A stretch of DNA of 39,332 nt from Lachnospiraceae bacterium (GTDB lineage Bacteria > Bacillota > Clostridia > Lachnospirales > Lachnospiraceae): NCBI GenBank assembly GCA_017476665.1, contig JAFUZJ010000047.1, positions 1 through 39,332 on the forward strand, written 5' to 3'. This document shows, in pieces, positions 1,532 to 19,124 of the stretch. Position 1 is the first letter of the stretch. Each line of letters opens with the position of its first letter. Position numbers and translations under genes: made by a program. The notes under the pieces are model-generated. The model made no database searches and had not been told where the DNA came from. It worked only from the letters and a program-made list of their open reading frames with translations.

Positions 1532-1547
1532 ACTTATCTCTCCTCTG

Positions 1548-3462: not shown

Positions 3463-4119
3463 TTATTTCTTTGCTATCACAGTGATCCACGGTTTACTCT
3501 TATGATGATCGGTCTTAACCTTCGTAAAACCTGCCGCTTTCAGAGCATCTGTGATCTGCTCAGCCGTATAGCATTTCATTCCGTCTATGATCTTTTCAAA
3601 CTTCAGGCTTGCAGCGTCCGTACCATCTGATTCATTGACGATCATGAAACAGCCATCGTCTTTCAGGACTCTTGCAACCTCCGCAAAACACGCTTCAAGC
3701 CCCGGCCAGAAATAGATGGTTTCAAAAGCCGTAGCCAGATCAAACGTATTATCCGGAAGCGCAAGCGCAGATACATCGCCTTGCTTTATTTCAAGTCTCC
3801 CGCTTGAGATCAGGTCCTTGTTGTATTCGCTTGCTTTTTCGACCGAAAGCTCGGAATAATCTATCGCCACCCCTTGGGCGGAAGGATATTTCTTTAGTAA
3901 TTCTCCTGCGTTTCGACCGCCACCGCACCCCAGATCAACAATTGCTTCCGGGACAATCGTTTTTAAATGTGCCAGACCCCAATCCGCCATTTTCGCATGA
4001 CCGGAGTTCATCCCATTTAACATCATCTTTCCTAATTTCCCTTCTGGCTTTCTCGTCTGACTTACATAGTCTTTAAATAATCCCATATTTTCTTTTGCTT
4101 TTTCTATGTTAGTTTCCAC
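3463..4119 (-). CDS. Class I SAM-dependent methyltransferase
   Basis: A 218-residue Rossmann-fold methyltransferase. Motif I is VDLGCGGGRN at residues 61-70, which binds S-adenosylmethionine; GVAIDYSELSVEKA (motif II acidic residue) and GDVSALALPDNTFDLA follow in the expected order, as in UbiE/Methyltransf_11 proteins. The start used is a GTG at 4119 with only a weak AGCAGG ahead; an ATG at 4086 (residue 12) is an alternative. The GTG lies inside one copy of a GTTAG-N6-CTAAC palindrome. It is the first gene of the left-hand operon and is followed closely by the glycosyltransferase. The substrate is unknown. Confidence 0.88.
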   Translation of the reverse strand: METNIEKAKENMGLFKDYVSQTRKPEGKLGKMMLNGMNSGHAKMADWGLAHLKTIVPEAIVDLGCGGGRNAGELLKKYPSAQGVAIDYSELSVEKASEYNKDLISSGRLEIKQGDVSALALPDNTFDLATAFETIYFWPGLEACFAEVARVLKDDGCFMIVNESDGTDAASLKFEKIIDGMKCYTAEQITDALKAAGFTKVKTDHHKSKPWITVIAKK

Positions 4120-4123
4120 TAAC
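4108..4123. promoter_or_regulatory. Palindromic operator candidate, site 1
   Basis: GTTAG, six bases, CTAAC. It overlaps the GTG start codon of the methyltransferase gene, about 70 bases downstream of the predicted transcription start, where a bound repressor would block elongation or initiation. Same consensus as the sites at 4172, 4292 and 19087. Confidence 0.6.
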
Positions 4124-4171
4124 CTGCTGTTAAAAAAATTTTTTATAATTGTATGCGATATTGATGCAGTA

Positions 4172-4187
4172 GTTAGTTTTACCTAAC
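4172..4187. promoter_or_regulatory. Palindromic operator candidate, site 2
   Basis: GTTAG-TTTTAC-CTAAC. It overlaps the expected transcription start (about 4186) of the leftward promoter whose -10 box is at 4193-4198. This is a classic repressor position for the methyltransferase-glycosyltransferase operon. Confidence 0.7.
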
Positions 4188-4192
4188 AAATC

Positions 4193-4221
4193 ATTATAGC
4201 ACCTATTTTCTTAATTGTCCA
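4193..4221 (-). promoter_or_regulatory. Promoter of the methyltransferase-glycosyltransferase operon
   Basis: On the minus strand TGGACA (4221-4216), a 17-base spacer, then TATAAT (4198-4193): five of six and six of six matches to the sigma-A consensus. Transcription would start near 4186, inside operator site 2, and leave a leader of about 67 bases. Confidence 0.75.
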
Positions 4222-4248
4222 CATCTCCAAGAAGTTTTCTAATTTCTC

Positions 4249-4277
4249 TTGCCAATTCTCTATGGCGGTGCTATAAT
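4249..4277 (+). promoter_or_regulatory. Promoter of the DUF4418-ABC transporter operon
   Basis: TTGCCA (4249-4254), 17-base spacer, TATAAT (4272-4277). Transcription should start near 4284, just before operator site 3, leaving a leader of about 95 bases before the ATG at 4379. It diverges from the leftward promoter at 4193-4221. Confidence 0.78.
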
Positions 4278-4291
4278 TCATAAATATTTAT

Positions 4292-4307
4292 GTTAGTTAC
4301 AGCTAAC
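4292..4307. promoter_or_regulatory. Palindromic operator candidate, site 3
   Basis: GTTAG-TTACAG-CTAAC, located at about +9 to +24 of the rightward promoter. The position fits repression of the DUF4418-ABC transporter operon by the same regulator as the leftward operon. Confidence 0.7.
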
Positions 4308-4378
4308 CCGCAGTAAATACGTTATTGGAATTTAGGCAATTTGATCTATAGATAATTTAAGACGGAGGAGATTATCAT

Positions 4379-4807
4379 ATGGCACAATCTACAAAAGAAA
4401 CAGCAACCCCAAATATCATATACGGCATTGTCCTGCTCTTGTCAGGCATCTGCCTCGCCGCCGGCACGCAGTTTGTCTTTCACGCATGCGGCATGCATGA
4501 GGACGGCAGCTACGGGCGGTGTCATTATGCACAGCTTGTCATAGTCTGCATAGGTCTGCTGATGACTGCCGGAGCGCTGTGCACCATCTTTTTGCGAACC
4601 AGAGAAGTGATGCTCGCCGTATCCGTGATCACCGCCTGCGAGGCTGTGTTTACACTGTTGATCCCGGGTACTGTCATTCCGCTCTGCATGATGGCAACCA
4701 TGAGCTGTCTTGCCAAAATGAAGCCTTTTACGACAGTGATGGGCATTGTTATTTTGCTCGTATCCATTGCAGGATTTATCCCGGCGCTTTCAAGAAAGGA
4801 AAACTAG
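4379..4807 (+). CDS. DUF4418 family membrane protein
   Basis: A 142-residue protein with four hydrophobic helices, matching the length and layout of the uncharacterised DUF4418 family. Between helices 1 and 2 a short loop carries FHACGMHEDGSYGRCHYAQ, so two cysteines and three histidines are clustered in a region that could face outside. Such a cluster could bind a metal; this is inference. The ATG at 4379 follows GGAGGAG by eight bases. The gene is first in an operon with an FtsX-type permease (four bases downstream) and an ATPase, and it lies behind a GTTAG-N6-CTAAC operator also found at the iron operon, which supports a role in metal transport or sensing. Confidence 0.75.
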   Translation: MAQSTKETATPNIIYGIVLLLSGICLAAGTQFVFHACGMHEDGSYGRCHYAQLVIVCIGLLMTAGALCTIFLRTREVMLAVSVITACEAVFTLLIPGTVIPLCMMATMSCLAKMKPFTTVMGIVILLVSIAGFIPALSRKEN

Positions 4808-4811
4808 ATTC

Positions 4812-6026
4812 ATGCCTGCTATTGAATCATTTACATTAAAACAATTATCCCGCCGACCGGCGCGGACGACGGCGCTGATCCTTCTGGCCATGCTGCTGTC
4901 CCTGTCGATCATGGGCGGGACGCTTATTGTCTCCGGACTGAAAAGCGGTCTGGACTCTCTGGAGACCAGACTGGGGGCTGATATTATGGTAGTGCCCTAT
5001 GAGGTACGGACCAAAACCAACTTAAACAACCTGATCCTCCAGGGAAATAATGGCTATTATTACGTAGACAGACAGTACCTGAACAAGCTCTATGACGGCA
5101 GCATTGCGGGAATCGGTCAGATTTCCGAGCAGTATTATTTTGCCACCGCCAGTTCCGGTTGCTGTTCCGCAGCTTTACAACTCATTGCCTTTGACCCCGA
5201 GACGGATTTTACCATTAAGCCCTGGATCAATGTCTCTTACAAAAAAGAGCTGCAGGACTGTGAAATCGTGGTAGGAAATGATATCAACGCTTTTCCGGGC
5301 GACACCCTGGTCTTCTACGGCGTAGAATGCACGGTGGCTGCGCGAATGGACAAAACAGGGACTTATCTCGACACCTCTGTCTACACCAGCCATGCAACCA
5401 TTGAAAAATTAATTGAAAATGCTCAGTCTAAGCAGCTTGCTGCTTACACCGGCAACACCTCGCCCTCCACCCATGCCTCCTGCGTATTGATCAATGTGGC
5501 AGAAGGATACACCGTGGAGGAGGTTCTGAATGACATCAACATCCATGTAAAAAAAGTGGTAGCGATCCAATCCAAGAGCCTGATTTCCAATGTGGCAGAA
5601 GGACTCTCCAATGTATCCGGTATTATCAGCGCTTTGGTGGTCGTAGTCTGGATTTTATCTCTCATTATCATGGTGATTTCTTTTACCATGATGATCAACG
5701 AGCGAAAAAAGGAATTTGCAGTCATCCGTGTCATCGGTGCCTCAGAGAAGATGCTGACCCGGATGGTGATGAAAGAAGCCTTTACCGTAAGTGCTGCCGG
5801 CAGTCTGCCGGGCGCGGCGTTGGGGCTTTTGGTGGTATCCCTGTTCTCCGGTATGATCGAGGACAGCCTGAATCTGCCGTTTCTGCTGCCTTCCGTCCCC
5901 GGACTTGCCATTCTGTTTGTCGCAGCCATCATTGCATCCACCATCGCCGGTTCTCTGGCTGCATCCTATGCCGCGCTGCGCATCAGCCGGATCGATCCCG
6001 CACTGATTTTGAGGGAGGACAACTAA
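4812..6026 (+). CDS. FtsX/MacB-type ABC transporter permease
   Basis: A 404-residue permease of the MacB/LolCE superfamily. One transmembrane helix near the N-terminus (TALILLAMLLSLSIMGGTLI) is followed by a large extracytoplasmic domain of about 220 residues and three C-terminal helices; the motif MINERKKEFAVIRVIGASEK precedes helix 3, as is typical for FtsX domains. The ATG at 4812 is four bases after the preceding stop; upstream TTG codons in the frame are inside the DUF4418 gene and were rejected. Its stop directly abuts the ATG of the ATPase. MacB-type systems usually do mechanical work on periplasmic partners rather than moving substrates through the membrane. The partner here is unknown. 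Confidence 0.9.
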   Translation: MPAIESFTLKQLSRRPARTTALILLAMLLSLSIMGGTLIVSGLKSGLDSLETRLGADIMVVPYEVRTKTNLNNLILQGNNGYYYVDRQYLNKLYDGSIAGIGQISEQYYFATASSGCCSAALQLIAFDPETDFTIKPWINVSYKKELQDCEIVVGNDINAFPGDTLVFYGVECTVAARMDKTGTYLDTSVYTSHATIEKLIENAQSKQLAAYTGNTSPSTHASCVLINVAEGYTVEEVLNDINIHVKKVVAIQSKSLISNVAEGLSNVSGIISALVVVVWILSLIIMVISFTMMINERKKEFAVIRVIGASEKMLTRMVMKEAFTVSAAGSLPGAALGLLVVSLFSGMIEDSLNLPFLLPSVPGLAILFVAAIIASTIAGSLAASYAALRISRIDPALILREDN

Positions 6027-6704
6027 ATGTTACTGAAAGCCGAACAGATCAGCAAAGAATATATAAGAAAGCGCGGGGAAAGCAATGTGTTCCAGGCGGT
6101 AAAGCCCCTCGACCTCACACTTGCGGAGAATGCACTGACTATCCTGCGGGGTGCCTCCGGCAGCGGCAAAAGTACATTGCTCAATATGCTGGCGGGACTC
6201 CTTAGCCCCACAACCGGCAACGTCACCCTGGATGGCACGGATCTCTACGCCCTGAATGACGCAGACCGCTCAAAGCTGCGCAACACTTATTTCGGCATTA
6301 TACCTCAGGGACAGACCGCGCTGCACAGCTTTAACGTATTGGAAAATGTTCTGCTGCCCTATACCATTTACGGGAAAAAAATTACCGCAAAAGAAACCGG
6401 ACATGCCCTCACTCTGTTAGACCGACTGGGTATCTCGGACTTAAAAGATGTCATGCCATCAGAACTCTCCGGCGGTGAACTGCGCCGTGTCTGCATTGCA
6501 CGGGCATTGATCAAAAATCCCAGGATTCTGCTGGCAGACGAGCCCACCGGAGATTTGGATGAAGAAAATACAGAGATTATTTTGAATCTGTTTAAGACCT
6601 GTACAAAAGAGGGGAAATCCATCCTCATGGTTACCCACGAAAAAGACATTGATTCCTACGCGGATCATTTATACCAAATGAAAAACGGCGAACTGATCGC
6701 TTGA
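6027..6704 (+). CDS. MacB/LolD-type ABC transporter ATPase
   Basis: A 225-residue nucleotide-binding subunit. Walker A GASGSGKST is at 42-50, the Q-loop glutamine near 94, the signature LSGGE at 147-151 and Walker B ILLADE at 167-172, then an EPTGDLD stretch typical of the MacB/LolD subgroup and a VTHEKD switch histidine. All catalytic positions are present. The ATG starts immediately after the permease stop (TAAATG), so the pair is translationally coupled. The gene ends only seven bases from the end of the convergent transglutaminase-like gene. It should power the 4812-6026 permease. Confidence 0.93.
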   Translation: MLLKAEQISKEYIRKRGESNVFQAVKPLDLTLAENALTILRGASGSGKSTLLNMLAGLLSPTTGNVTLDGTDLYALNDADRSKLRNTYFGIIPQGQTALHSFNVLENVLLPYTIYGKKITAKETGHALTLLDRLGISDLKDVMPSELSGGELRRVCIARALIKNPRILLADEPTGDLDEENTEIILNLFKTCTKEGKSILMVTHEKDIDSYADHLYQMKNGELIA

Positions 6705-6711
6705 TCCTGCA

Positions 6712-7632
6712 TTATTTATAGTCCCGCTGTGCCATTGGATACTGAGCATAAAAGGTTTCTGTTGCAAACGCCTCATCCCGCACGTGATCCGCCATATTTC
6801 CGTCTGTTTTCAGATAATAGGCATTGCTTCCCATCATTTTATCCCAAGTCACATCCAGATTGTACCACGCACCGTCAATCTCCACGAGATTCCAGGCATG
6901 ATACTCCGTCCCGTTACCATCCTTTAATGTTCCTGTGATCACACGGGCATTCACGCCCGCTTCCCGCAAAAGCCGGTACATTAGCACAGAATACCCCTGA
7001 CATACCGCCCGCTTGTTCACCAACGCCGCATAAGCCGTGGTTTTCAGATGGTATTGCCTGTTGTTGCGATGGACCATATCATATTCCACCGTATCATATA
7101 CGTATTCATAAATTCGACGTACCGTTTCCCCATCTGAGGTGTACCGGTGAAAATGCATGTCCGTGAGAATCACATTTACCATATCATCCACCGTTTCCTC
7201 CTGTTTCAGTGTGGTATAGTAATTCGGCGTGATGGTTAAATGATATTGATAAATTCCATCCAGTTCCGTGTAACCATATTCCAGTTCGTATCCGCCATAC
7301 TGATAGCGCAGATAATCTCCCTGCCGGGGATCATCTGTCTCGCAAAGCGCACATTCTATCAGCTCATGTACCAGCGCACTGATATCCCCCATATGATCAT
7401 TGTCCGTGGTAAAATCAATCATGATATGTTGGTTACGGTTCTGCAGCCCCTCTCTGATCTGTTCAATGACATAATCTGCATTGGTAAAATTCAGCCGTAA
7501 CTCCTCGCTGAGCTCATAGTGATACTTCGGAACGGAAATCCTATGATACAGCAGTCTGCCTAACACGCAGGCTGCCAAAAAGACGACCGATATTCCGAAT
7601 ATAACTGCTGCCCGCCTCTGCTTTCTATCCAT
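6712..7632 (-). CDS. Membrane-anchored transglutaminase-like (cysteine protease fold) protein
   Basis: A 306-residue protein with an N-terminal signal anchor (residues 8-29) and a transglutaminase-like domain in the C-terminal half. The catalytic triad is visible: C211 in RAVCQGYSVLM, H245 in EYHAWNLV and D260 in WYNLDVTWD. Bacterial members are usually proteases, peptidases or cross-linking enzymes acting outside the cell. The ATG at 7632 was chosen because GGAGG lies four bases upstream and the start overlaps the stop of the iron-sulfur subunit gene by eight bases; an ATG at 7656 lacks a ribosome site. It is the last gene of the long iron/redox operon. Its substrate is unknown; maturation of a lipoprotein of the operon is one possibility. 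Confidence 0.85.
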   Translation of the reverse strand: MDRKQRRAAVIFGISVVFLAACVLGRLLYHRISVPKYHYELSEELRLNFTNADYVIEQIREGLQNRNQHIMIDFTTDNDHMGDISALVHELIECALCETDDPRQGDYLRYQYGGYELEYGYTELDGIYQYHLTITPNYYTTLKQEETVDDMVNVILTDMHFHRYTSDGETVRRIYEYVYDTVEYDMVHRNNRQYHLKTTAYAALVNKRAVCQGYSVLMYRLLREAGVNARVITGTLKDGNGTEYHAWNLVEIDGAWYNLDVTWDKMMGSNAYYLKTDGNMADHVRDEAFATETFYAQYPMAQRDYK

Positions 7633-8365
7633 GCTGCCTCCATACTGCAATTCCATTGGAGCTGCTCAGAAGATGGTCCACATCGATTCCGGCCGGACAG
7701 ACATCCCTGCACGCCAGCGATTTGCCACAGCCCGCATACACATGTGCCTCATACTGCTCTCTGACCTCCCGCTGTTCCTCCACCGAAAGCGTGGATAAAA
7801 GCCTCGCCGCAGGCACAAATGCCGCCGCGCCAAAGAACTCTCCTCCCGGATAAAAATTGGGACAGATTTCCAGACAACAACCGCACTGCAGACATCGGGA
7901 TGCCTCATAAGCCTGGTCGCTTCGCTTTTCAGCCACCTTTCCGGAACCGTTTACCCAGGTCTGCATGATCCGCAGATTTTCAAACAAAATACTCCTGTCC
8001 ACGATCAGATCTGCCACAACCGGAAACTTGTGCAGCGGCTCCAGACGGATTTCACCCATCTGATCACCCGAATTGCCTTTCCTTTTTTTTCGGAATTCCC
8101 TCAACTCCGTGTCGCAGGCCAGGCGCGGTCTGCCGTTAATGACCATGGCACAGGCACCGCACTTTTTTTGCAGACAGCTACACTCCCAGCGGATGGGGAG
8201 TTCCACTTCCCTGCCTTCTGTGTCAGTCAGACCTTTCGTCCGGTTCATCTGATTCAACGCATAGGCAACCGTTGCATTCTCGTCTGTGGTTTCAAAGGGA
8301 ATGCCCTGCCAATAATTGTCCGAAAACGCACTCTTGCGTCTAAGTATCTTGATCTCTGCCTTCAT
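7625..8365 (-). CDS. frdB: Fumarate reductase/succinate dehydrogenase iron-sulfur subunit
   Basis: A 246-residue electron-transfer subunit. The N-terminal plant-type ferredoxin domain has C62, C64, C69, C72 and C84 for a [2Fe-2S] cluster; the C-terminal domain has CLQCGCCLEICP (158-169) and C213, C219, C223 with CP, for [4Fe-4S] and [3Fe-4S]-type clusters. It would carry electrons between the flavoprotein and the membrane subunit. The ATG at 8365 overlaps the flavoprotein stop (ATGA) and follows AGAGGAAAC. An upstream start at 8398 has no ribosome site. Finding it inside an iron-uptake operon is unusual; it may feed an extracytoplasmic reductase rather than respiration, which is inference. 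Confidence 0.9.
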   Translation of the reverse strand: MKAEIKILRRKSAFSDNYWQGIPFETTDENATVAYALNQMNRTKGLTDTEGREVELPIRWECSCLQKKCGACAMVINGRPRLACDTELREFRKKRKGNSGDQMGEIRLEPLHKFPVVADLIVDRSILFENLRIMQTWVNGSGKVAEKRSDQAYEASRCLQCGCCLEICPNFYPGGEFFGAAAFVPAARLLSTLSVEEQREVREQYEAHVYAGCGKSLACRDVCPAGIDVDHLLSSSNGIAVWRQHG

Positions 8366-10002
8366 ACTGTTTCCTCTGCCCGCTGTGCTTTGCGACATGT
8401 GATCTGAATAGGAATGTCCTCACCCTGCTTTATCTCTGCCTGCATAATGCCTGAGAATGTCTCATCCCGCTCCGGATAATCCTCTCTGTAATGCGCCCCT
8501 CTGCTCTCCCTGCGGGAGATTGCACTGGCCACCATCGCCTGCGCCAGATAGATACGGTTTCTCTCCCTTTCATTCAGTCCGTCCCGCTGCAATAATTGCG
8601 CCAGCCGCTCCTCTGCCTTCCTAAGTCCTTGCGCATTGCGCACGATTCCCATAGCAGCCGCCAGAATATCCCGTATCTCATAAATGACTTGTTGGGAGGC
8701 TTCCCTGAAATCTCTGTCCGTCTCCGGAATTTTCTCATATTTTATCTTTTTCTCATTTCCGTCATAGACATCCGCAGCTTGCTCTACCCTCTCCGCCACG
8801 GTCCGTGCCGCTACTCTGCCGCCATAAATGGCGCCCAGCATGGAATTACCGCCCAGACGGTTTGCACCATGATACTGATCGCAGCACTCCCCTGCCGCAT
8901 AGAGTCCGGCTATATTCGTCTGATGCTTTCTGTCCACATCGATTCCACCCATAAAATAATGGATTCCAGGTTCCACCGGTACAGGAGTAGTCTGCGGGTC
9001 GATCGACAGATAGTGAATCAGTTCCGCCCGCAGATCCGGCAGGCGCTTTCTCCATACTTCCCCGGATAATCCGGTCATATCCAGGTAAACTTGTTCCCCA
9101 CAGGACGGATCTTTCCTGACAAAATAAATCTCCCGAGACACCACATCTCTCGGCATCAGATTCTTAAACTCCGGATATTTCTCCTCCATGAAATACCACG
9201 GCTTTCCCGCCCGCATCACAAACAGCCTGCCGCCTTCCCCTCTGGCAGCTTCCGTCACCAGGCAGCGCTTGCCGGAAATACAGATCGTAGTAGGATGATA
9301 CTGAATCATCTCCAGATTGCCCAACCGCACCCCCTGGGCAAAAATCTGCGCCAGCGCATCGCCACTGTTTGCAGTGGTGCCGGTGGTCAATTCCGGGAAC
9401 ACACCGTTCATGCCCCCGATTGCCAGAATCACGGATCCTTCAAAGAAATGCATCCTGGTCGTATAAGTGTCCCTGATCAGGGCACCTCTGCATGCTCTTT
9501 CGGTTGTCTCATCGGACAAAACCAGGGACTCAAATGCATGATGCGGATATCTGGAGATCAGCCCCTGTGCCTCATACTTTCTGGCTTCATCAATCAACGC
9601 AGTCATAATGATCTTACCCGTGCTACTCCTGGCATACGCAGTGCGCTTCTTTTTCTGTCCGCCGAAATTCCGCAGCAAAATTTCTTCCTTCTGCGTGTTA
9701 AATGCCACACCCAGTCTCTCCAGATCACGAATGATCTGCGGCGCTTCGTCTGTCAATCCGCGAACCGCCTCCTCGTCTGCCAGATAAGCCCCTGCACGCA
9801 TAGTGTCTTCCTTGTGATACTTTGGGGCATCTTCCTCGCCCATGGTGTTCAATGCACCATTAATGCCGCCCTCTGCCAGCACAGACTGCGCCCGTTCCGA
9901 CGGCTGCAGCGAGATCAAATTGGATTGTATCTTGTTTTCAGCCAAAGTGATTGCCGCGGACAATCCCGCCAACCCTGCGCCGATAATATTCACTCTTTGC
10001 AT
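8362..10002 (-). CDS. frdA: Fumarate reductase/succinate dehydrogenase flavoprotein subunit
   Basis: A 546-residue FAD protein. The N-terminal dinucleotide fold GAGLAGLSAAITLAE, the flavin-site motif SVLAEGGINGAL, the substrate-site segments MIQYHPTTI and TEAARGEGGRLF, and HGANRLGGNSMLGAI near residue 390 are all present, so catalytic His and Arg residues of the fumarate reductase family are retained. No signal peptide is visible, so it is cytoplasmic. The ATG at 10002 has TTGGAGA upstream; the frame extends to 10029 but overlaps the previous gene. L-aspartate oxidase (NadB) was considered, but the partner iron-sulfur and membrane genes favour a fumarate-reductase-type complex. Whether fumarate is the true substrate in this operon is open. 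Confidence 0.9.
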   Translation of the reverse strand: MQRVNIIGAGLAGLSAAITLAENKIQSNLISLQPSERAQSVLAEGGINGALNTMGEEDAPKYHKEDTMRAGAYLADEEAVRGLTDEAPQIIRDLERLGVAFNTQKEEILLRNFGGQKKKRTAYARSSTGKIIMTALIDEARKYEAQGLISRYPHHAFESLVLSDETTERACRGALIRDTYTTRMHFFEGSVILAIGGMNGVFPELTTGTTANSGDALAQIFAQGVRLGNLEMIQYHPTTICISGKRCLVTEAARGEGGRLFVMRAGKPWYFMEEKYPEFKNLMPRDVVSREIYFVRKDPSCGEQVYLDMTGLSGEVWRKRLPDLRAELIHYLSIDPQTTPVPVEPGIHYFMGGIDVDRKHQTNIAGLYAAGECCDQYHGANRLGGNSMLGAIYGGRVAARTVAERVEQAADVYDGNEKKIKYEKIPETDRDFREASQQVIYEIRDILAAAMGIVRNAQGLRKAEERLAQLLQRDGLNERERNRIYLAQAMVASAISRRESRGAHYREDYPERDETFSGIMQAEIKQGEDIPIQITCRKAQRAEETV

Positions 10003-10007
10003 ACTCT

Positions 10008-10562
10008 TTATCTCCAAATCACATTCCATCTGAGATAATAAATTACCATGCCGATTCCGCCAAACAACAAAACAATCGCCAGAATAAACAGAACATCCTT
10101 CATATAAATCCGCCCCCCTTTGATTCCGAATGAAATCAACAGCGGCCTGATATTTGTCATCACATGCACCGCAATAGATAATATCAGCAGGATCTGAGTC
10201 ACCAGCTGTACTCCTTCAAACATCGTCAATCGGTACACCTCCCCCGCTGGTCCCAGAAAAATTGCGATATGGCAAAACACAAACAACATGACAGCAAAGC
10301 CACTGATCCGCCTCGCCCAAAAAATTCGATTTTCACGCGGATACGAAACGCCCGATTTTCGAATGGCTCTCAATGTAGCTATTGTCAATTGAATCCCGAT
10401 GGCAATATGCAGAATGATCAATCCTGTCATGATCCAGGAGAGCACCGATACCACCCGGTTGCCGCCGGGCAGCACTCCCATCAATTGAAAACCGCCCACC
10501 ACTGCATGTATTACCAAAAGTATCAAAACACTCGCACTGATAACTGCATTTATTTTTCTCAT
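10008..10562 (-). CDS. Cytochrome-b-like membrane anchor of the fumarate-reductase-like complex
   Basis: A 184-residue protein with five hydrophobic helices. Histidines lie within or next to helices (about residues 19, 52, 97 and 133), as expected for heme b ligation in succinate/fumarate dehydrogenase anchors; 'IMTGLIILHIAIGIQ' and 'MLFVFCHIAIFLGPAG' are the clearest. The ATG at 10562 follows AGGAAG. It ends five bases before the flavoprotein gene, so the order anchor-flavoprotein-iron-sulfur is an intact complex operon. Sequence similarity to characterised FrdC or SdhC is weak by eye; the assignment leans on topology and context. Confidence 0.75.
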   Translation of the reverse strand: MRKINAVISASVLILLVIHAVVGGFQLMGVLPGGNRVVSVLSWIMTGLIILHIAIGIQLTIATLRAIRKSGVSYPRENRIFWARRISGFAVMLFVFCHIAIFLGPAGEVYRLTMFEGVQLVTQILLILSIAVHVMTNIRPLLISFGIKGGRIYMKDVLFILAIVLLFGGIGMVIYYLRWNVIWR

Positions 10563-10611
10563 CTATGCTTCCTCATTTTCTTCCGTCAATCCTTCCTGAT
10601 GCCACCCTTCA

Positions 10612-11115: not shown

Positions 11116-11154
11116 GCACATTCCCTCTGCCGTGACAAATTCGACAAATTTACG

Positions 11155-11604: not shown

Positions 11605-11635
11605 GATTTTCCTTTCCTCGTCACACTTTTATTTC

Positions 11636-12325
11636 TCAGTGGAACCGAATATGTCCGGTAAAATTCTCGTTGACAGTTTCCTTACTGATCTTGCCGTTCC
11701 TGAGCACCACCATCCTCTGCGCCGTCTCCGCCACCTCCGGATCATGTGTAACAACGATCAACGTTGTCCCCTCTTCATGCAGTTTGCGGAACAACTCTAC
11801 CACAATCTCTTCATTGGCGTCATCCAGGTTACCTGTGGGCTCATCTGCCAGAATGATCTCCGGGTGATTGATCAGTGCCCGTGCCACACAGACTCTCTGC
11901 TGTTCCCCTCCGGACAACTGGCTGGGCAAATGCTTCGCGCGATCCGCAAGTCCCACTCGTTCCAGCGCCTCCAACGCTTCCTTCTCATCCGGAATACTGT
12001 GATAATACTGCGCCAGCATGACGTTCTCCACCGCAGTCAGATAATTTACCAGATGGAACTGCTGGAAAATCAGCCCGATCTTGTCCCTGCGGATATTTGT
12101 CAGGTTCTTTGCCGACTCCGCCGCAATATTTACTCCGTCCAACAGCACCTCGCCCTTGGACGGCTTATCCATACACCCGATAATATTCATCATCGTACTT
12201 TTACCGGAGCCGGAAGGACCCATGATTGCCAGCCACTCCCCTTTTTCCACCTTCAGATTCACATCATCCAAAGCATGCAGATCTCCGTATATCTTGTAAA
12301 CGTTCTTTAATTCCAACAAGCTCAT
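11636..12325 (-). CDS. MacB/LolD-type ABC transporter ATPase of the iron operon
   Basis: A 229-residue ATPase with Walker A GPSGSGKST (36-44), signature LSGGE (137-141), Walker B with ADEPTGNLD (160-168) and the switch histidine H194 in VVTHDPE. It belongs to the MacB/LolD subgroup. The ATG at 12325 has AAAGGAGAA upstream and lies three bases after the permease stop. It should drive the two permeases encoded just upstream (12329-13507 and 13529-14818). The same arrangement, FTR1, P19, DUF2318 protein, two FtsX permeases and an ATPase, is known from the Campylobacter P19 cluster and related Gram-positive iron-uptake loci. Confidence 0.93.
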   Translation of the reverse strand: MSLLELKNVYKIYGDLHALDDVNLKVEKGEWLAIMGPSGSGKSTMMNIIGCMDKPSKGEVLLDGVNIAAESAKNLTNIRRDKIGLIFQQFHLVNYLTAVENVMLAQYYHSIPDEKEALEALERVGLADRAKHLPSQLSGGEQQRVCVARALINHPEIILADEPTGNLDDANEEIVVELFRKLHEEGTTLIVVTHDPEVAETAQRMVVLRNGKISKETVNENFTGHIRFH

Positions 12326-12328
12326 ACT

Positions 12329-13507
12329 CTATTCTCCTTTCAACACCAGCGCCGGATCAACCTTCGTCGCACTCTTGATGGGCAAAAGACAGGCAACACC
12401 AGTAATCACAATAGACACAATGATAGTAACAGGCACCAATACCGGCCGCAGTGTGATTGTGGAGCTAAATACATTCACACTGACAAACTGCGCAAACGCA
12501 AATCCCAGCCCGGAGCCCAGAATACCGCCTACACCGCCAAGCAACATGCCTTCTCCCATAAACTCTTGAATAATGCTGGCATCCGATGCACCGATTGCCT
12601 TGCGCAGCCCGATTTCCCGCCGCCGCTCTGTCACCACCGCTGTCATGGTGGTAGCCACACAGATCATGGTCAGCGCCAGCACCACCACAGTTACCAGCAA
12701 TACCAGCGCCTGCAGCTTTGACAACACCGTGGTCTCCGAAGCCGTCACACGCTTTACCAGTCTTGCATGTACCGCCGGCACCTGTGTGTTGATGCGCTCC
12801 ATATAAGCGTTCAGCCCATCTCCTGATGTGGAGATGCTGACCTCCGCCAAATCGATCTCTTCCGCAATCCCTGTGAGTTCCTCCAGATCTGCCATGGGAA
12901 TATATACATAATCCTCCTCTGATCCGCCAGTGTTCAAAGTACCCTTCACCACAAAATCGATCATATTGTCTAAAACTACTTCATCATCGGCTCCGGCATT
13001 TTCTGACGCACCCGCGCCCTCATCTGCCTCCGGTGTAAAACTCAATGTCACGGTAGATCCGATTTTCAGATTCAGATTTTCCGCTACATTCTCACCAACC
13101 AGAATCTCTCCGCTTCCCGCCGGCCACTCACCTTCAATCAGCCAGTAGGGACTGGTCTTTTTCACCGCCTCCATATCCGTTCCCGCCGCCATAATGGGCT
13201 GTTCATGGATACGCACAGTCTCATAGCGGAAGGGAGTTGCTCCCACCAGATCCGCAGATGCCACAATTGCCAGTCCGGCGTCCATGTCCTCCTTTGTAAA
13301 AGAACCATCCGCCGCCGTCAGGATCATATTGGCACCGTAATTTCTAAATTGTGCTCCCATCTGTCTGGGCACATCATAATAAATCGTCACAAGCCCCGAA
13401 AGGATTGTCGCCCCGATCGCAATGGCCAACAATGCCACCAGCATTCTGGACCGTCTGCGCATCAAAGAGGCTGTGATCATGCGAAAATACATTTTCCTTT
13501 TTGTCAT
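12329..13507 (-). CDS. FtsX/MacB-type permease, second copy of the iron operon
   Basis: A 392-residue permease with a first helix at about 20-40, an extracytoplasmic domain of roughly 210 residues and three C-terminal helices. The segment VTERRREIGLRKAIGASDAS is the FtsX-domain hallmark. The ATG at 13507 follows GGGAGG by nine bases; the frame can be extended three codons to a TTG. An acidic stretch (EADEGAGASENAGADDE) in the outer domain is distinctive. It is similar in plan to the permease just upstream, and the two likely form a heterodimer with the ATPase at 11636-12325. Confidence 0.9.
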   Translation of the reverse strand: MTKRKMYFRMITASLMRRRSRMLVALLAIAIGATILSGLVTIYYDVPRQMGAQFRNYGANMILTAADGSFTKEDMDAGLAIVASADLVGATPFRYETVRIHEQPIMAAGTDMEAVKKTSPYWLIEGEWPAGSGEILVGENVAENLNLKIGSTVTLSFTPEADEGAGASENAGADDEVVLDNMIDFVVKGTLNTGGSEEDYVYIPMADLEELTGIAEEIDLAEVSISTSGDGLNAYMERINTQVPAVHARLVKRVTASETTVLSKLQALVLLVTVVVLALTMICVATTMTAVVTERRREIGLRKAIGASDASIIQEFMGEGMLLGGVGGILGSGLGFAFAQFVSVNVFSSTITLRPVLVPVTIIVSIVITGVACLLPIKSATKVDPALVLKGE

Positions 13508-13528
13508 CTGACTCAACCTCCCTATGCC

Positions 13529-14818
13529 TTATCTGCCATGCAAAACCTCGGCAGGCTCCAGATGCAGAAGCATCCTTACTGCCGGCATACTACCGATCAA
13601 CGTCACCAGTACAACCAGTACCGCCACCAATGGGATCACCATGGGCTGAATTGTAATGGATGAGGAAAATACCGTCTGCCCTATAATCTGCGCAAATCCT
13701 GCACCTACCACAAATCCCACACACCCGCCAATAATCGCCGTGATGATGATCTCCGTCAGCACCAGTCCCGTAACTGCCCCATTGTGTGCGCCGATGGCCT
13801 TCATCAGACCGATCTCACTGCTTCGCTCCATGACACTGGCCGTCACCAGATTACAGATACCAAGCGCCGCGCCAATCATGCTCAAAATGGTGATCAACAA
13901 CATCAAAAGCTCTGTCTTCTCCAGAATCTCGCCCTCAGAATCCGCCACCTGGCGCACCGCAGATGCCACCGAATCTGTGATCACCTCCTGGATCTGAAAG
14001 CAGATAGAACTCACATACGCCGTACAATACCATGTTTCATACTGGGAAATGGACAAAGAACCGGGATCCTTCGCAGCCTTTTGTGCCAACTCATTATCGG
14101 GGGTCGTCAGCGCACTGACCTCGATACTGTCGATGCAGCCGTCCAGATCATCCAATGCCTGCGCCGAATCCAAAGGTACAAAAATCTGCCCATCTTCATC
14201 ACCGCCCGCGTCAAAAATACCGGCCACCGTATAAGTCGCATCCTGCACGGTTCCGATCACGTGAACCGGATCCCCTACATGCAGATCAAGCTTATCCGCA
14301 AGCTCCACGCCCACCATTGCCATATTTTCATTTTCCGCCGTCTGCTCATTCAGCCAGGCGCCTTCTTTGATCTCCCACCAGCTCCGCAGACTGTTCATGC
14401 CCGCGTCCAGCTGTTCCCCTGTCGGCAGATCCATATGGTGATTGAACCAGCTACCCACCACTGTCACTTCGCTGCCGTCATCCAAGGTCGCCCGGGCACT
14501 GATAAACGGCGCATAGTCCACAATATTAAATGCCCAGAAAATGGTCTTAATCTTGCCCAGTTCATCTTCCCGCAGATAGGTTCCGGTGCTTTGACCGCCC
14601 TCTATCTCATACAGATCGTCCAGCACCGAAGATTGCTTCGGCACCACCGTGATATTTGCACCGTAAGCCTTCAGCTCCTGGTTTACCTTATCGCCTACAT
14701 CCAGCATCACACTCAACATCGCAGTGGCAAGGGAAGCCCCCAGCGCGATTGTGAAGGCGATCATCAACATTTTCTTCCATTGTCTTACAAACGTTCCGAA
14801 AACCATTCTGAAAAACAT
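13529..14818 (-). CDS. FtsX/MacB-type permease, first copy of the iron operon
   Basis: A 429-residue permease with an N-terminal helix (MLMIAFTIALGASLATAML), a large outer domain and three C-terminal helices. VMERSSEIGLMKAIGAHNGA marks the FtsX domain. The ATG at 14818 follows GGAGG by nine bases and lies 14 bases after the DUF2318 gene. The outer domain is expected to touch the P19-type lipoprotein or the DUF2318 protein during ATP-driven cycles. The pairing with the 12329-13507 permease matches the two-permease layout of P19 iron loci. Confidence 0.9.
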   Translation of the reverse strand: MFFRMVFGTFVRQWKKMLMIAFTIALGASLATAMLSVMLDVGDKVNQELKAYGANITVVPKQSSVLDDLYEIEGGQSTGTYLREDELGKIKTIFWAFNIVDYAPFISARATLDDGSEVTVVGSWFNHHMDLPTGEQLDAGMNSLRSWWEIKEGAWLNEQTAENENMAMVGVELADKLDLHVGDPVHVIGTVQDATYTVAGIFDAGGDEDGQIFVPLDSAQALDDLDGCIDSIEVSALTTPDNELAQKAAKDPGSLSISQYETWYCTAYVSSICFQIQEVITDSVASAVRQVADSEGEILEKTELLMLLITILSMIGAALGICNLVTASVMERSSEIGLMKAIGAHNGAVTGLVLTEIIITAIIGGCVGFVVGAGFAQIIGQTVFSSSITIQPMVIPLVAVLVVLVTLIGSMPAVRMLLHLEPAEVLHGR

Positions 14819-14832
14819 TTCTTCCGCCTCCT

Positions 14833-16080
14833 TTACCTGAATTCTTTCTCATGTTCTGCCAGACCATCCACCGGAACCCGGATCGTTCCGTTCGAGATCT
14901 CATAGGGGATCACAATGGGATTGCACCCCCCCTTGAAACCGATGGTATTGATATTCATGACCACATCGCACAGATTGCACACCACCTGTCCGTCCTTCTC
15001 ATAATAACCCGTCTCGCCGCAGATGTCGCAGGCATCCAGTCCGATTCCGTAAGAGGAGGAATTGGGCTTTTGGATCACGATAAAACGTATTGTCACACCG
15101 CCGTCTGTCGTGTACCCGAATCTGTGCAGATGTCCGTCGCTCACCCTCTCAAAAGGCACCACTACATAGCCGTCTTCCACAGGCGCATCCTCGGTGGGTG
15201 AAAGCTCCACCGTCCGATTTGCCATCTTTTTTACCCATGTCATATTTGACAGGACGCAAACCAGACAGATAAGCATCAGAACCGACCAGCGTCTGGTGAT
15301 CCGCCATTTGGCGATGATCTTTCTGCGCTCCGCCGGATTATTGTAAAGCTCGTTCACATGAGCGCTTCGGACAAGAAGCATCACTGCAATGATCAGCCCA
15401 AGGATCATCAGTCCATATATGAAAAATCTGCTGTAATTCGACCCATATTTTGCAAGGGTAAACAGGGTGTGATTGGATTTTAATATCCTCTTTGCCAACA
15501 TCACGCTGATCGCGCTCAAAACCTGTTTGATCACAATAATCAGCTCCGCAAAGAACAACAATACGAATACTTTTTTCTTCTCCAGTCTGACCGAGCCTTT
15601 GTATGCCGCCAATCCGGTCAGAAATACAAGCAAAAGCCCCCCCAGCATTCCGATGAATTTATAGAGATAATTCGTAGAGAGAAGGGTACGCTCTCCGGTA
15701 TAGATTGCATAAGGGTAAGCCAGCACATCCGGCAAAGCATAGAAAATCGCCAGCACGATCAGTACTGCCAATATCACCGCGGGCAGCAATGTCCGGGCCT
15801 TTTCCCATTTTTTCCCAAATGCACTGAAAAGCAGAAATAACACAAAAAACAATAAATAGAGTCCGAATATCCACAGATTCCACTTGCCGGTCTCTATCTT
15901 AGCCGTTGTATTTTTCAGGACAGACATAACAGCCGACAGCACAAAGCCTGCAATTGCCGATCCCTGCATGATACGCTTTGCACGTTCACCCAGAAGCAGC
16001 CTTATATAACCATAGGCTATACCGACACTGATTGTCATAAGAATCAGTTGTTCTGTTGTCTGTATCAGATATTTTAACAC
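14833..16080 (-). CDS. DUF2318 membrane protein with a cysteine-rich outer domain
   Basis: A 415-residue protein: about eight helices in residues 1-280, then an extracytoplasmic DUF2318 domain. That domain has GHLHRFGY (316-323), then CDICGETGYY (351-360), C368, C371 and GGCNPI (386 region), giving two C-x2-C pairs and an extra cysteine suited to binding a metal or a disulfide relay. The GTG at 16080 is chosen because GGAGG lies nine bases before it; the frame reaches 16107 only by a TTG, and that extension contains the ribosome site. DUF2318 proteins accompany FTR1 and P19 in iron uptake and are thought to help iron reduction or transfer. Function not established. Confidence 0.87.
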   Translation of the reverse strand: MLKYLIQTTEQLILMTISVGIAYGYIRLLLGERAKRIMQGSAIAGFVLSAVMSVLKNTTAKIETGKWNLWIFGLYLLFFVLFLLFSAFGKKWEKARTLLPAVILAVLIVLAIFYALPDVLAYPYAIYTGERTLLSTNYLYKFIGMLGGLLLVFLTGLAAYKGSVRLEKKKVFVLLFFAELIIVIKQVLSAISVMLAKRILKSNHTLFTLAKYGSNYSRFFIYGLMILGLIIAVMLLVRSAHVNELYNNPAERRKIIAKWRITRRWSVLMLICLVCVLSNMTWVKKMANRTVELSPTEDAPVEDGYVVVPFERVSDGHLHRFGYTTDGGVTIRFIVIQKPNSSSYGIGLDACDICGETGYYEKDGQVVCNLCDVVMNINTIGFKGGCNPIVIPYEISNGTIRVPVDGLAEHEKEFR

Positions 16081-16117
16081 GTCAAAATTCCTCCAATTGT
16101 TTATCAAATCTCAAAAC

Positions 16118-16198
16118 GCACCAAAGCGCCATGCCGAAATCCTTGAAAATCAAGGTTTTCAGGCACGACGCATTCGGCATTCTTTCACCCGCAGGTGC
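16118..16198. repeat. Nested inverted repeats between the P19 and DUF2318 genes
   Basis: Three nested stems share one region: GCACC (16118-16122) with GGTGC (16194-16198), ATGCCGAA (16131-16138) with TTCGGCAT (16173-16180), and CCTTGA (16141-16146) with TCAAGG (16150-16155, loop of three). The 142-base gap is the longest inside the iron operon. There is no T-run, so it is not a clear terminator; it may stabilise the upstream mRNA or tune expression of downstream genes. Confidence 0.6.
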
Positions 16199-16222
16199 TT
16201 ATTTACTTTGTGGATTCACAAA

Positions 16223-16867
16223 TTACCACTCCTGAGGAACGTACTCCCAACCCTCAAAAGTATAGGTCAAAGGCCACTGAACATCGGTAAGCAGTCCGCC
16301 AGGGCCGGTCTCGGAATCAGAGTGAATCAGATATCCGTTCTCGCCGGGGCTCTTGATGGTGATCTTCAGGCTGTATGTATCTGCATTGGGCAGCTTTACA
16401 TTCGCGCCATAGTGAGGACCGTCAGAAGCAGCCATGGTCATGAAGGTACCTGCTGCTGCGCTCTTACCGTCAGAACCGATCACATCATAATCAACAGTCA
16501 GATAAGGAACCCAGTCGCCGACACCATAACCAAGGTTGTTCTCCAATGCGGAGATATCAGCCTCAAGGTGAAGATCGAAATCCTCTGCAGAAATGTTCTG
16601 GGTCTCGCTCTGCATCGGAACAGGCTGGAAATATACAGCGGAGAGGTTGATGAAACCAAGCTCCTCGTCCTCAAAAATAGGAATCTCCTCGAAACCTGCT
16701 GCATCACCAGGTGCAGCTACTGCAGCGTCTTTGGATACACTTGCCTCTACAGCAGAGCTGGAACTGGTCTGGCTGCTGGGTGCAGAAGCGTTGTTGTTAC
16801 AACCGGTAAGGCTCATAGCAGCTACAGTTGCAACAGCGAGCATAGCAGAAATTGCTCTCTTTTTCAT
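16223..16867 (-). CDS. P19/Tp34-type iron-binding lipoprotein
   Basis: A 214-residue lipoprotein with lipobox LTGC (C23), a low-complexity Ser/Ala linker to about residue 55, then the P19/Tp34 immunoglobulin-like domain. Candidate metal ligands are visible: the acidic EEIPIFEDEE stretch (60-69), H100 in DLHLEADI, M143 or M145, and H152 in GPHYGANV. The family binds iron and copper outside the membrane and delivers iron to FTR1-type permeases. The ATG at 16867 follows GGAGG. It lies 70 bases after the FTR1 gene. Codon choice in the N-terminal part is biased to preferred codons (GCA, CTC), hinting at high expression. Confidence 0.92.
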   Translation of the reverse strand: MKKRAISAMLAVATVAAMSLTGCNNNASAPSSQTSSSSAVEASVSKDAAVAAPGDAAGFEEIPIFEDEELGFINLSAVYFQPVPMQSETQNISAEDFDLHLEADISALENNLGYGVGDWVPYLTVDYDVIGSDGKSAAAGTFMTMAASDGPHYGANVKLPNADTYSLKITIKSPGENGYLIHSDSETGPGGLLTDVQWPLTYTFEGWEYVPQEW

Positions 16868-16937
16868 AATACTTTCCTCCTTAAAAATTTAATTTATATA
16901 TCTTCAAGACAGTTTTGTAAAACTCTCTTAGATACCT

Positions 16938-18533
16938 TTATTTATCAGACTGTTCTTTGTCGTCCTGTTCTTTTACAGGCTGAGCCTTCGCCAGTCCCTG
17001 CTCAACAAGCACCTGCATCACCACTTCGCGGACAACCTTGCGCAGTGCCTCGTCTGCCGCCTTCTTCTCGGCCGCTTCCTTCTCGACTCTCTCCTTTGCC
17101 CTTCTCTCCTCTGCGGCTGCATGAATCTCCCGGTTCTTCTTAGCCTGGATCACAACCAATACAATGGTGATTGCCAATAAAATCAACTGCGGAACAATGG
17201 TCTGCACGCAGGGATAAATGCCCAGCACATCCAAAAAGTCATTAGTAGGAATCCATGCAACCCACGCCGGCGAGGTCATGGTGATCAGATCCGCCTCAAT
17301 CAGTTCCTTGATACCTGCACCCAAAAAGGAGATGGACATAATGTACATCAAAATACTGGTTGCCAGGAAGAAAGGCTTAGTGGGAATCCGCAGGCTCAGG
17401 TAGTGGATCGCCAGATATACAAACGCTAACACCACAAAACCTACAATCAAACCGATCCAAACCGCATGGATGTTTTCATCACTCATAAGCGGCTGGAAGA
17501 ACAATACCACCTCGGCACCCTCACGGAATACTGCCAAAAATGCGGTGAAGCCCAGCGCAAAGAAGCTTCCCTTCGCAGAAGAGGTCTCCGCCTTATCCTT
17601 GATATAGGATACCCATGCATCCGTCTCGGACTTGGAGAACATCCAGTTGCTGACATAATACAACACACATACGGCAAGCAACGCCGTGATACCTTCTATC
17701 ATCTCCTGGGAGGCTGTATTAGCCAGCTTGATCGCTGCCAACAGCCACGCCAGACCGAAGCTCAAAACAATACCGAGCACAGAACCGATGTATACCGGAC
17801 GAAGTGTTTTCTTTCTTCTCTCTTCATCATCGCCTGCGCCTTTATGCAGGTAAGCAATGATCGCGCCTACAATCAGGATTGCCTCTAATCCTTCCCTCAG
17901 AATAATGCCGAAACAAGCAATAAATGTTGCCATTGCTGCGGAACGCTGTGCAGTCGTGCTGCCGGAACCGGAATTCCCTGAATCACTGTTGCCCGAACCG
18001 TCTGCGCTGCCCGAATCATCGGACACACCATCCAACTGATTGGCATCCGCGCGAAGCATCTCTTCCAGCAGATCAACCTGTGCCGTGAACTCCTCCAGTG
18101 TGCCGTTTTTCTTGGCAACAGACTTGCAGGCTGAAAACTGCAGCTCCATCTCTGTTTTTCTGGAGCCGGAAATATATCCCATGGCAATCCGCTCAAAACC
18201 GGTGGTCTCATAATATCCATAGTAAGCGTCACTGACCGACTTATATGCCGCCTGTGTATCACCTGCTGCATAAAGCTCCTTACCGTAATCCAGCACGGCA
18301 TCCATGGCATCTACAACCTCATTCCATGTCCATGCGTAATCCTCCGGTTTTCCTGACGCTGCCTGATATTCCTTCCACTTTGCTATGTAACCGTCCGCTG
18401 CGTTTACCTGCATCAACGGGGAGACAATCAACGCGACTGCCATCAGCGCAATCAGTAAGTGACCCTTGATCTTACCAAAATACTTTCCGTTCTGTTTTTT
18501 ATTCATGACACCCATGCTGTTTATGTCTTTCAT
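16938..18533 (-). CDS. FTR1 family iron permease with periplasmic-type N-terminal domain
   Basis: A 531-residue iron permease. After a signal sequence (about 24-46) there is an outer helical domain (47-165), a Ser/Gly-rich linker (170-193) and a seven-helix FTR1 core. The two iron-binding motifs are REGLE (213-217) and REGAE (337-341). The C-terminus is a charged coiled coil (about 455-495) that is cytoplasmic. The outer domain and linker are usual for bacterial EfeU/FTR1 relatives that work with P19. The ATG at 18533 has GAGGG twelve bases upstream; ATGs at codons 7 and 10 are alternatives and would not change the mature protein much. It takes up iron delivered by the downstream lipoprotein. 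Confidence 0.92.
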   Translation of the reverse strand: MKDINSMGVMNKKQNGKYFGKIKGHLLIALMAVALIVSPLMQVNAADGYIAKWKEYQAASGKPEDYAWTWNEVVDAMDAVLDYGKELYAAGDTQAAYKSVSDAYYGYYETTGFERIAMGYISGSRKTEMELQFSACKSVAKKNGTLEEFTAQVDLLEEMLRADANQLDGVSDDSGSADGSGNSDSGNSGSGSTTAQRSAAMATFIACFGIILREGLEAILIVGAIIAYLHKGAGDDEERRKKTLRPVYIGSVLGIVLSFGLAWLLAAIKLANTASQEMIEGITALLAVCVLYYVSNWMFSKSETDAWVSYIKDKAETSSAKGSFFALGFTAFLAVFREGAEVVLFFQPLMSDENIHAVWIGLIVGFVVLAFVYLAIHYLSLRIPTKPFFLATSILMYIMSISFLGAGIKELIEADLITMTSPAWVAWIPTNDFLDVLGIYPCVQTIVPQLILLAITIVLVVIQAKKNREIHAAAEERRAKERVEKEAAEKKAADEALRKVVREVVMQVLVEQGLAKAQPVKEQDDKEQSDK

Positions 18534-18572
18534 GTCAGTTTAACACCCTCGATTTCTATAGCACTTAGTACT

Positions 18573-19007
18573 CTACGCGTCTTCACACGCGCATGGTACA
18601 ATGACAACACTCTGTATTTTTTGGCTGTCTATGTACCCGCATTTCTTTAATCCTTCCCGGATAACCTCGTTCCAGGCATTTGCTGCCAACTCAATTTTAT
18701 AACCGTCGTCCAGTTCTACCTGGCACGCTTTCTCCACCCCGCACTCTTCTCCGCACGCAATGCGATACATATTTCTGCGATTGATCGCTCCCACATCCTC
18801 CAACGTATTGATCATGCGGTAAACTGTAGCCGCGCCGATGTTTTTATCCCGCTTAGATGCCTTGTAAAAGATTTCTTTACAGTTCGAGCAGTTTCCCTCC
18901 AGGATTATATCCAGTAACATCAGACGTTGCTTGGTTATTCTGCAGCCCCGGTCCTTCATTTTTTGTACAATGATGTCTTTCTGCATATTAATTATCATCT
19001 TTTCCAT
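18573..19007 (-). CDS. Fur-family regulator lacking histidine ligands
   Basis: A 144-residue regulator. The winged-helix DNA-binding part is recognisable (RITKQRLMLLDIILEG, then IGAATVYRMINTLEDVGAI), matching the Fur/PerR recognition helix. The C-terminal half lacks the HHHH..C-x2-C segment of Fur; the protein has no histidine at all from the chosen start, but nine cysteines (22, 40, 43, 85, 89, 95, 123, 139, 141). Metal or redox sensing must therefore use thiolates, or be absent. The start is uncertain: ATG at 19007 (AAGGGG three bases before), or ATG at 18998 or 18986. It is the first gene of the iron operon, and its own promoter carries a dyad over the -10 box, so autoregulation is likely. 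Confidence 0.85.
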   Translation of the reverse strand: MEKMIINMQKDIIVQKMKDRGCRITKQRLMLLDIILEGNCSNCKEIFYKASKRDKNIGAATVYRMINTLEDVGAINRRNMYRIACGEECGVEKACQVELDDGYKIELAANAWNEVIREGLKKCGYIDSQKIQSVVIVPCACEDA

Positions 19008-19064
19008 GTCCCCTTGTCTTAAAATGATCATTCTATGCAAGCACCTATAAGCTATGAATTTTAA

Positions 19065-19124
19065 CAGTTACTTTTCTCCAATGACAGTTAGTATAGTCTA
19101 ACTGCTATTAGAAGTCAATAACTG
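19065..19124. promoter_or_regulatory. Extended nested dyad operator at the fur/iron-operon promoter
   Basis: The core is CAGTTAG-TATAGT-CTAACTG (19085-19104). Outer half-sites CAGTTA (19065-19070) and TAACTG (19119-19124) are centred on exactly the same point (19094.5), so half-sites repeat every 20 bases on each arm. The core overlaps the -10 box at 19090-19095. The GTTAG-N6-CTAAC centre is the same as at 4108, 4172 and 4292. Confidence 0.75.
19090..19118 (-). promoter_or_regulatory. Promoter of the fur-FTR1-P19 iron operon
   Basis: On the minus strand TTGACT (19118-19113), 17-base spacer, TATACT (19095-19090): five of six matches in each box. The -10 box lies inside the palindromic core, so a bound regulator would block polymerase. 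The leader to the start at 19007 is about 75 bases. Confidence 0.78.

Follow-up and report, generated by a model that had tools for sequence, protein, structure and literature searches.

We analysed a 39,332-nucleotide (nt) contig of a Lachnospiraceae bacterium (JAFUZJ010000047.1; here the window, contig C16 of a 3.64-Mb assembly that is 97% complete) and found that the 16-letter palindrome GTTAG-N6-CTAAC, which lies at the promoters of three of its operons, recurs through the genome in front of many iron-uptake genes. From the sequence evidence, it is likely that this palindrome is the operator of an EqbA-like repressor of the DtxR family, a 121-amino-acid (aa) protein without an SH3 domain that is encoded on another contig (C12), and there is good support for a common regulon of the DtxR type that probably responds to iron. 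A first-pass annotation had listed four exact copies of the palindrome and three promoters in the window; a pattern search recovered all four copies and no other, and the promoters agreed to the base:

4108..4123, no strand: putative operator copy 1, GTTAGTTTCCACTAAC; in the leader or at a possible start codon of the leftward operon
4172..4187, no strand: putative operator copy 2, GTTAGTTTTACCTAAC; at about +1 of the leftward promoter
4292..4307, no strand: putative operator copy 3, GTTAGTTACAGCTAAC; begins about 8 bp 3′ of the inferred rightward start
19087..19102, no strand: putative operator copy 4, GTTAGTATAGTCTAAC; covers the −10 box of the iron operon
4193..4221, minus strand: leftward promoter, TGGACA-17-TATAAT, a consensus match; score reached in a 0.00 fraction of 300 mononucleotide shuffles
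4249..4277, plus strand: rightward promoter, TTGCCA-17-TATAAT; score reached in a 0.00 fraction of 300 shuffles
19090..19118, minus strand: iron operon promoter, TTGACT-17-TATACT; score reached in a 0.02 fraction of 300 shuffles

Dinucleotide shuffles of the window held 0.40 copies on average with one mismatch allowed, and four copies were reached in none of 100. Copy 1 overlaps the possible GTG start of a methyltransferase gene at 4119, and the best candidate for a promoter of its own was not better than shuffles.

Across the whole genome, the search revealed 16 copies that match exactly and 11 that differ at one position. When the gap was freed to 2–12, the same 16 matches were returned, every one with a gap of 6 and the ten other gaps giving no match, whereas the control, the same pattern read backwards, gave 3 exact copies, 96 with up to one mismatch and 62 over gaps 2–12. 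None of the exact sites is enclosed by an open reading frame (ORF) of at least 100 aa, although such ORFs sum to 85–95% of the examined stretches; a few touch an ORF end, as at 4108. Among the five one-mismatch sites examined out of 11, three are intergenic, one lies inside an ORF (C31) and one (C71) in no listed ORF. Being mostly perfect, of one spacing and outside genes, the motif looks like a selected operator. The exact sites precede the following genes:

C16: methyltransferase-glycosyltransferase-DUF6796 (three copies); DUF4418-FtsX-ABC; Fur-like-FTR1-P19-FtrD-FtsX-(FtsX)-ABC
C29: methyltransferase (two copies); feoA-feoB with ABC transporters; ABC-ABC-Trep_Strep; LCM-type methyltransferase-TetR
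C38: Trep_Strep
C41: Fur-like-feoA-feoA-feoB (feoB by Pfam, feoA genes by eye)
C60: DUF3793-flavodoxin
C49: polyferredoxin (by eye)
C50: DUF6796
C9: BAAT-type hydrolase-DUF6796
C6: enolase (by eye and homologues)

Many of the recognizable functions behind the sites are iron uptake or a flavodoxin replacing iron–sulphur carriers. A clear promoter, defined as a sigma-70-type match with at most a 0.02 fraction of 300 mononucleotide shuffles as good, was found at 7 of the 16 sites (window copies 2, 3 and 4, the LCM-type methyltransferase, DUF3793, enolase and the C41 site), the three promoters of the window being among them. In all seven, the site either contains the −10 box or is no more than approximately 8 bp from the inferred start. 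Because of this geometry, we infer repression by occlusion. With ample ferrous iron, a single dimer carrying the metal would bind the palindrome, whose two TTAG half-sites, ten base pairs apart, would each be read by one subunit; at the sites with a clear promoter, a dimer over the −10 box or within about 8 bp of the start would block RNA polymerase. Under iron shortage, the repressor would leave and the set would be switched on: two feoAB systems, FTR1-P19-FtrD, DUF3793-flavodoxin, the ABC/Trep_Strep and FtsX-type transporters and, as less obvious members, methyltransferases, the glycosyltransferase, DUF6796, DUF4418 and enolase.

The genome encodes a single DtxR-family protein above the Pfam cut-off, with its match at C12:37034, off the contig of the window; two weaker matches to DtxR profiles are GntR-type proteins by eye. 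Its gene (C12:37028-37393) specifies 121 aa with a winged-helix domain (PF01325, 39.8 bits) and a metal-binding and dimerization domain (PF02742, 60.3 bits), both over the cut-off, and the chain stops after the latter, without the SH3-like C-terminal domain. His78, Cys100, Glu103 and His104 are invariant among the three proteins aligned. The ligand stretch reads DACRMEH versus DAEGMEH in E. coli MntR (2h09), which places Cys at the MntR Glu99 position, where Cys is described as an iron ligand in DtxR and Glu as a manganese ligand in MntR (PMC4805248); the Cys residue is tied to Fe2+ in PMC3672683 as well. Because PMC4805248 also describes a Cys-bearing site that binds Mn2+, this residue alone cannot decide the metal. 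Taken together, the targets, the ligands and the EqbA precedent point to iron as the signal. The case for the C12 protein as the regulator of the sites is strong; its binding, its metal and the direction of regulation are predicted.

EqbA, encoded on ICESe2 of Streptococcus equi, is a DtxR-like protein without an SH3 domain that represses a siderophore operon (PMC3672683). According to that report, gel shift required a 36-bp palindrome, Fe2+ and Zn2+ enhanced binding and Mn2+ did so less, deletion of eqbA raised the eqbE transcript 13-fold, and the operator was called unlike other iron boxes by its authors. As printed there, the 36-bp palindrome contains GTTAGATGTATCTAAC, an exact GTTAG-N6-CTAAC. 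Going by its description, EqbA resembles the C12 protein in having Cys at DtxR Cys102, Asn at the Met10 position and no SH3 domain, and the two sets have iron uptake as a target in common; EqbA, however, is tied to an adjacent siderophore operon, whereas the C12 gene lies away from its 16 16-bp sites. Plasmid pAPRE01 of Anaerococcus prevotii carries a DtxR-family gene, its product 40% identical to the C12 protein, before a thioesterase-phosphopantetheinyl transferase-AMP ligase-NRPS operon of a siderophore type like that of S. equi, and GTTAGCCAATACTAAC lies between the two, shortly after a TATAAT. In four other plasmid-borne homologues examined, no exact site was found upstream of the DtxR-family gene.

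The palindrome can also be placed relative to the operators of actinobacterial DtxR/IdeR. The IdeR/DtxR consensus had been said to hold two TTAG-N6-CTAA units shifted by five bases, and its form in PMC8464063, TTAGGTTAGSCTAACCTAA, bears this out; the same source reports, as the first example, binding of a solitary 14-bp unit, TTAGGNNNNCCTAA, by a single IdeR dimer. The C12 set would share with DtxR/IdeR the TTAG-N6-CTAA geometry, iron sensing and Cys/Glu/His metal ligands, as described in PMC8464063, but differs in the missing SH3 domain, in a lone unit instead of the 19-bp double one and in having no G or C beside the half-sites; by eye, its recognition helix also differs from that of DtxR. 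Five bases to either side (offset −5 or +5), where the 19-bp double operator would have its second unit, none of the 16 sites holds an exact one; the closest second unit carries two mismatches and all others three or more. The Fur regulon of Clostridioides difficile is alike in role, as a response to iron limitation (PMC6311696), and unlike in protein family and operator.

We then related the site to dtxR in other genomes. We examined the best 80 of 582 related dtxR loci, recognizing feo genes in them from a pair of short peptide motifs. An exact copy of the palindrome lies no more than 400 bp upstream of dtxR in 24, and the other 842,378 bp of these loci hold 17 more. The feo genes are present in 22 of the 24 site-bearing loci, and the 56 loci without a site divide into 14 with feo and 42 without, so that the site is found in 2 of 44 loci lacking feo and mostly belongs to the feo operon. 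General autoregulation of dtxR, which was first suspected from G022, where a site precedes dtxR, and from G006, where GTTAGTATATACTAAC lies between divergent dtxR and feoA-like genes with feoB next, was rejected on these counts.

The presence of the regulator and the abundance of sites also go together. With a homologue defined as a match at E ≤ 1e-10, and with p-values that ignore kinship and are therefore optimistic, at least three exact sites occur in 25 of 48 genomes with a DtxR homologue versus 0 of 13 without (Fisher p = 3.8e-4), and in 17 of 30 versus 0 of 6 (p = 0.02) when these 61 genomes are restricted to those at least 90% complete. A second set comprised 196 genomes of the order (inferred to be Lachnospirales because the closest named dtxR loci, among the matches listed, are Lachnospiraceae), at least 90% complete and 20 of them also in the first set. 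It gave 114 of 164 versus 5 of 32 (p = 1.5e-8), against 60 of 164 versus 14 of 32 for the backwards control (p = 0.55); the 176 genomes outside the first set gave 104 of 149 versus 5 of 27 (p = 1.3e-6). G123 and G198 hold 25 and 23 exact sites, respectively, and three DtxR homologues each; regulon and regulator seem to expand together there.

Sites are also kept at orthologous operons. The relatives' stretches were chosen for holding sites and cover part of the listed sites, so that they indicate that homologues can carry the site and imply no frequency; of the 59 exact sites in them, 3 fall within ORFs of at least 100 aa. In G022, an FTR1 gene (product 62% identical) followed by P19 and FtrD has a site 64 bp upstream, and a glycosyltransferase gene (55%) has one 46 bp upstream. 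In G018, a site lies 28 bp upstream of a DUF6796 gene whose product is 73% identical to that of 1548..2198, in the same stretch as a methyltransferase (77%). The proposal that one regulator may serve the three operons of the window thus gains support from the genome-wide set, from these orthologous sites and from the iron theme. Two candidates had been put forward for it, a DtxR-type protein encoded elsewhere and the unusual Fur-like protein of the iron operon; the former is now favoured, and the latter is disfavoured by the 17 of 25 site-rich genomes in which it found no match.

A DtxR-type regulator that senses manganese, in the manner of MntR, is an unlikely variant of this assignment. MntR of Bacillus and E. 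coli is likewise a two-domain DtxR-family protein of similar size, and the C12 protein has MntR entries as its top NCBIfam and Protein Data Bank (PDB) matches, the NCBIfam ones far below their cut-offs and the PDB one being 2h09 (E = 8.8e-14); a PDB search with the C-terminal 51 aa again gave MntR matches only and no DtxR. A ZIP-family transporter gene in G018 has two sites upstream. However, the known targets in our genome are iron genes, including feoAB, FTR1-P19 and flavodoxin, and the position held by Glu in MntR is held by Cys, linked to Fe2+ in PMC4805248 and PMC3672683.

Binding of the palindrome by a TetR-family regulator is less probable still. TetR-type genes adjoin the exact sites C29:61272, C29:71184 and C38:457, which counts against a DtxR-type operator, and the one-mismatch site C29:50752 (PF00440 was confirmed for two of the four adjoining genes, the rest being assigned by eye). 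Operators of TetR proteins are palindromes of comparable length. Nevertheless, by eye, a TetR-type gene is directly adjacent at only 3 of the 16 exact sites, and none adjoins the four sites of the window or those of DUF3793-flavodoxin, enolase and the C41 feo genes. One operator would also need to serve several paralogous TetR proteins, and the link between dtxR and feo together with the EqbA precedent favours DtxR.

It is more doubtful again that the Fur-like protein (18573-19040) and its paralogue on C41, which is 79% identical and stands before feo genes, form the common regulator and control themselves through the palindrome. Each of the two genes opens an operon whose −10 box carries the site, and genomes with a Fur-like protein (10 of 61, with no match at E ≤ 1e-10 in 51) are richer in sites, with a mean of 6.8 versus 2.4 and at least three in 8 of 10 versus 17 of 51; in 5 of the 10, the gene lies within about 11 kb of dtxR. 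Yet the genomes with at least three sites but no Fur-like match include G022 (11 sites) and G010 (10 sites), and G022, which is 95% complete, retains the FTR1-P19-FtrD site all the same. The protein, moreover, matches the N-terminal half of the Fur model only. On presence and absence, and on the FTR1 site of G022, we rejected it as the common regulator; it is probably a member of the regulon. Fur-like proteins keep the Fur-like first half and have a different, Cys-containing tail, whose Cys residues recur in most of the homologues compared and are largely missing in L226 and L227; the protein possibly senses another signal. Two further Fur-family proteins are present in the genome, all their NCBIfam matches being below cut-off. 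A Fur regulon acting through the consensus Fur box TGATAATNATTATCA was likewise rejected for want of a good copy at the targets: the genome holds no exact or one-mismatch copy, and of the 43 copies with two mismatches (7 for the control) none is on the contig of the window.

That the four copies are an effect of chance or composition deserves practically no weight: A+T-rich intergenic DNA could yield palindromes, but the shuffles never reached four copies, the spacing control refutes chance with 16 of 16 sites at one gap, and chance would give far more one-mismatch copies than 11 beside 16 exact ones.

Several observations weigh against the DtxR-type operator. The best promoter at 9 of the 16 sites does not outscore shuffles, and occlusion is supported at the other seven only; an iron role is not obvious for enolase or the methyltransferases; none of the 16 sites fits TTAGGNNNNCCTAA (as given in PMC8464063), the spacing being equal and the inner G and C absent. 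The C12 protein has Asn at the Met10/Asp8 position, the region upstream of its own gene holds no TTAG-N6-CTAA copy, and sites are scarce at dtxR loci without feo. The link to the regulator is weak within the genus itself (14 of 31 versus 0 of 6, p = 0.06), G117 (9 sites) and G226 (5 sites) gave no DtxR match, and of the 164 genomes with a homologue, 50 do not reach three sites. Since only 7 of the 16 sites show a clear promoter and none agrees fully with the IdeR half-site, we consider the EqbA-like DtxR-type repressor likely and go no further than that.

The three operons of the window have the following gene content:

3463..4119, minus strand: SAM-dependent methyltransferase, gene 1 of the leftward operon (Pfam PF08241)
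2215..3453, minus strand: macrolide-family-type glycosyltransferase (PF03033/PF06722)
1548..2198, minus strand: DUF6796 protein (PF20599)
842..1558, minus strand: DUF6796 protein (PF20599)
133..918, minus strand: DUF6796 protein (PF20599)
4379..4807, plus strand: DUF4418 protein, gene 1 of the rightward operon (PF14387)
4746..6026, plus strand: FtsX-like permease (PF02687)
6027..6704, plus strand: ABC transporter ATPase (PF00005)
18573..19040, minus strand: Fur-like protein, gene 1 of the iron operon (PF01475, model positions 2-64 of 121)
16938..18533, minus strand: FTR1/EfeU-type iron permease (PF03239)
16223..16867, minus strand: P19-type Fe2+ transport protein (PF10634)
14833..16107, minus strand: FtrD-like membrane iron–sulphur protein (PF10080)
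11636..14818, minus strand: FtsX/MacB-type permeases and ATPase of the iron operon (PF02687 and PF12704 at 13529-14818; PF00005 at 11636-12325)
12329..13516, minus strand: ORF within the FtsX/MacB-type block, assigned by reading alone

On the same strand and 3′ of the iron ABC genes, the ORFs of 6712-11604 read as an FMN-binding protein, small ORFs and fumarate-reductase-like flavoprotein and Fe-S subunits; these genes could be cotranscribed with the iron operon.

Elsewhere in the genome, C29:45.7-73 kb concentrates five exact and two one-mismatch sites in about 27 kb, among feoAB, paired ABC transporters, Trep_Strep, a double-ATPase protein, hydrolases, methyltransferases and several TetR-type genes, and looks like an island for iron-compound uptake or efflux. 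At C49:5685, the operator before the polyferredoxin gene has no clear promoter over or downstream of it and a weak one 3′ of the site, a geometry that might reflect activation or a missed promoter.

Enolase has an upstream site in four relatives too, each just 3′ of a −10-like box by eye. In all five genomes, the operator just after this box is followed by a long leader; those of the four relatives carry the string TCATGTGRA 3′ of the operator and, in two, a terminator-like hairpin. An Rfam scan of seven sources, the stretches of the five enolase leaders included, gave no match. In our genome, enolase (C6:17460) and the LCM-type methyltransferase (C29:72940) share near-identical operator surroundings and a first stretch of 5′ leader that includes a hairpin-like repeat followed by T's, and it seems that a promoter-leader duplication placed the methyltransferase under enolase-type control.

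Neither the protein family nor the mechanism is new, and one such operator was already known; the use of the palindrome as a chromosome-wide operator with this gene set appears to be new. In the open-access literature searched, we found no paper joining DtxR with Lachnospiraceae and, among the matches listed, none on this regulon by title or abstract start. Whether, across much of the inferred order Lachnospirales, an EqbA-like single-dimer DtxR instead of Fur is the master iron regulator is evenly poised; in that case, the minimal GTTAG-N6-CTAAC operator would define a chromosome-wide regulon that extends past iron uptake to enolase and perhaps PEP synthase in central carbon metabolism, and to a little-known group of methyltransferases, a glycosyltransferase and the DUF6796/DUF4418 proteins, which may serve to produce or transport an iron-binding compound. 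The recurrence of the site suggests that a lone single-dimer DtxR-type site, of which PMC8464063 describes the first IdeR example, is a normal operator across a large bacterial group. The gut is shaped by competition for iron, and a readable operator would allow the iron regulons of many uncultured relatives to be listed from sequence; it places DUF6796, DUF4418, DUF3793 and Trep_Strep in an iron context and makes the odd link between iron and enolase testable.

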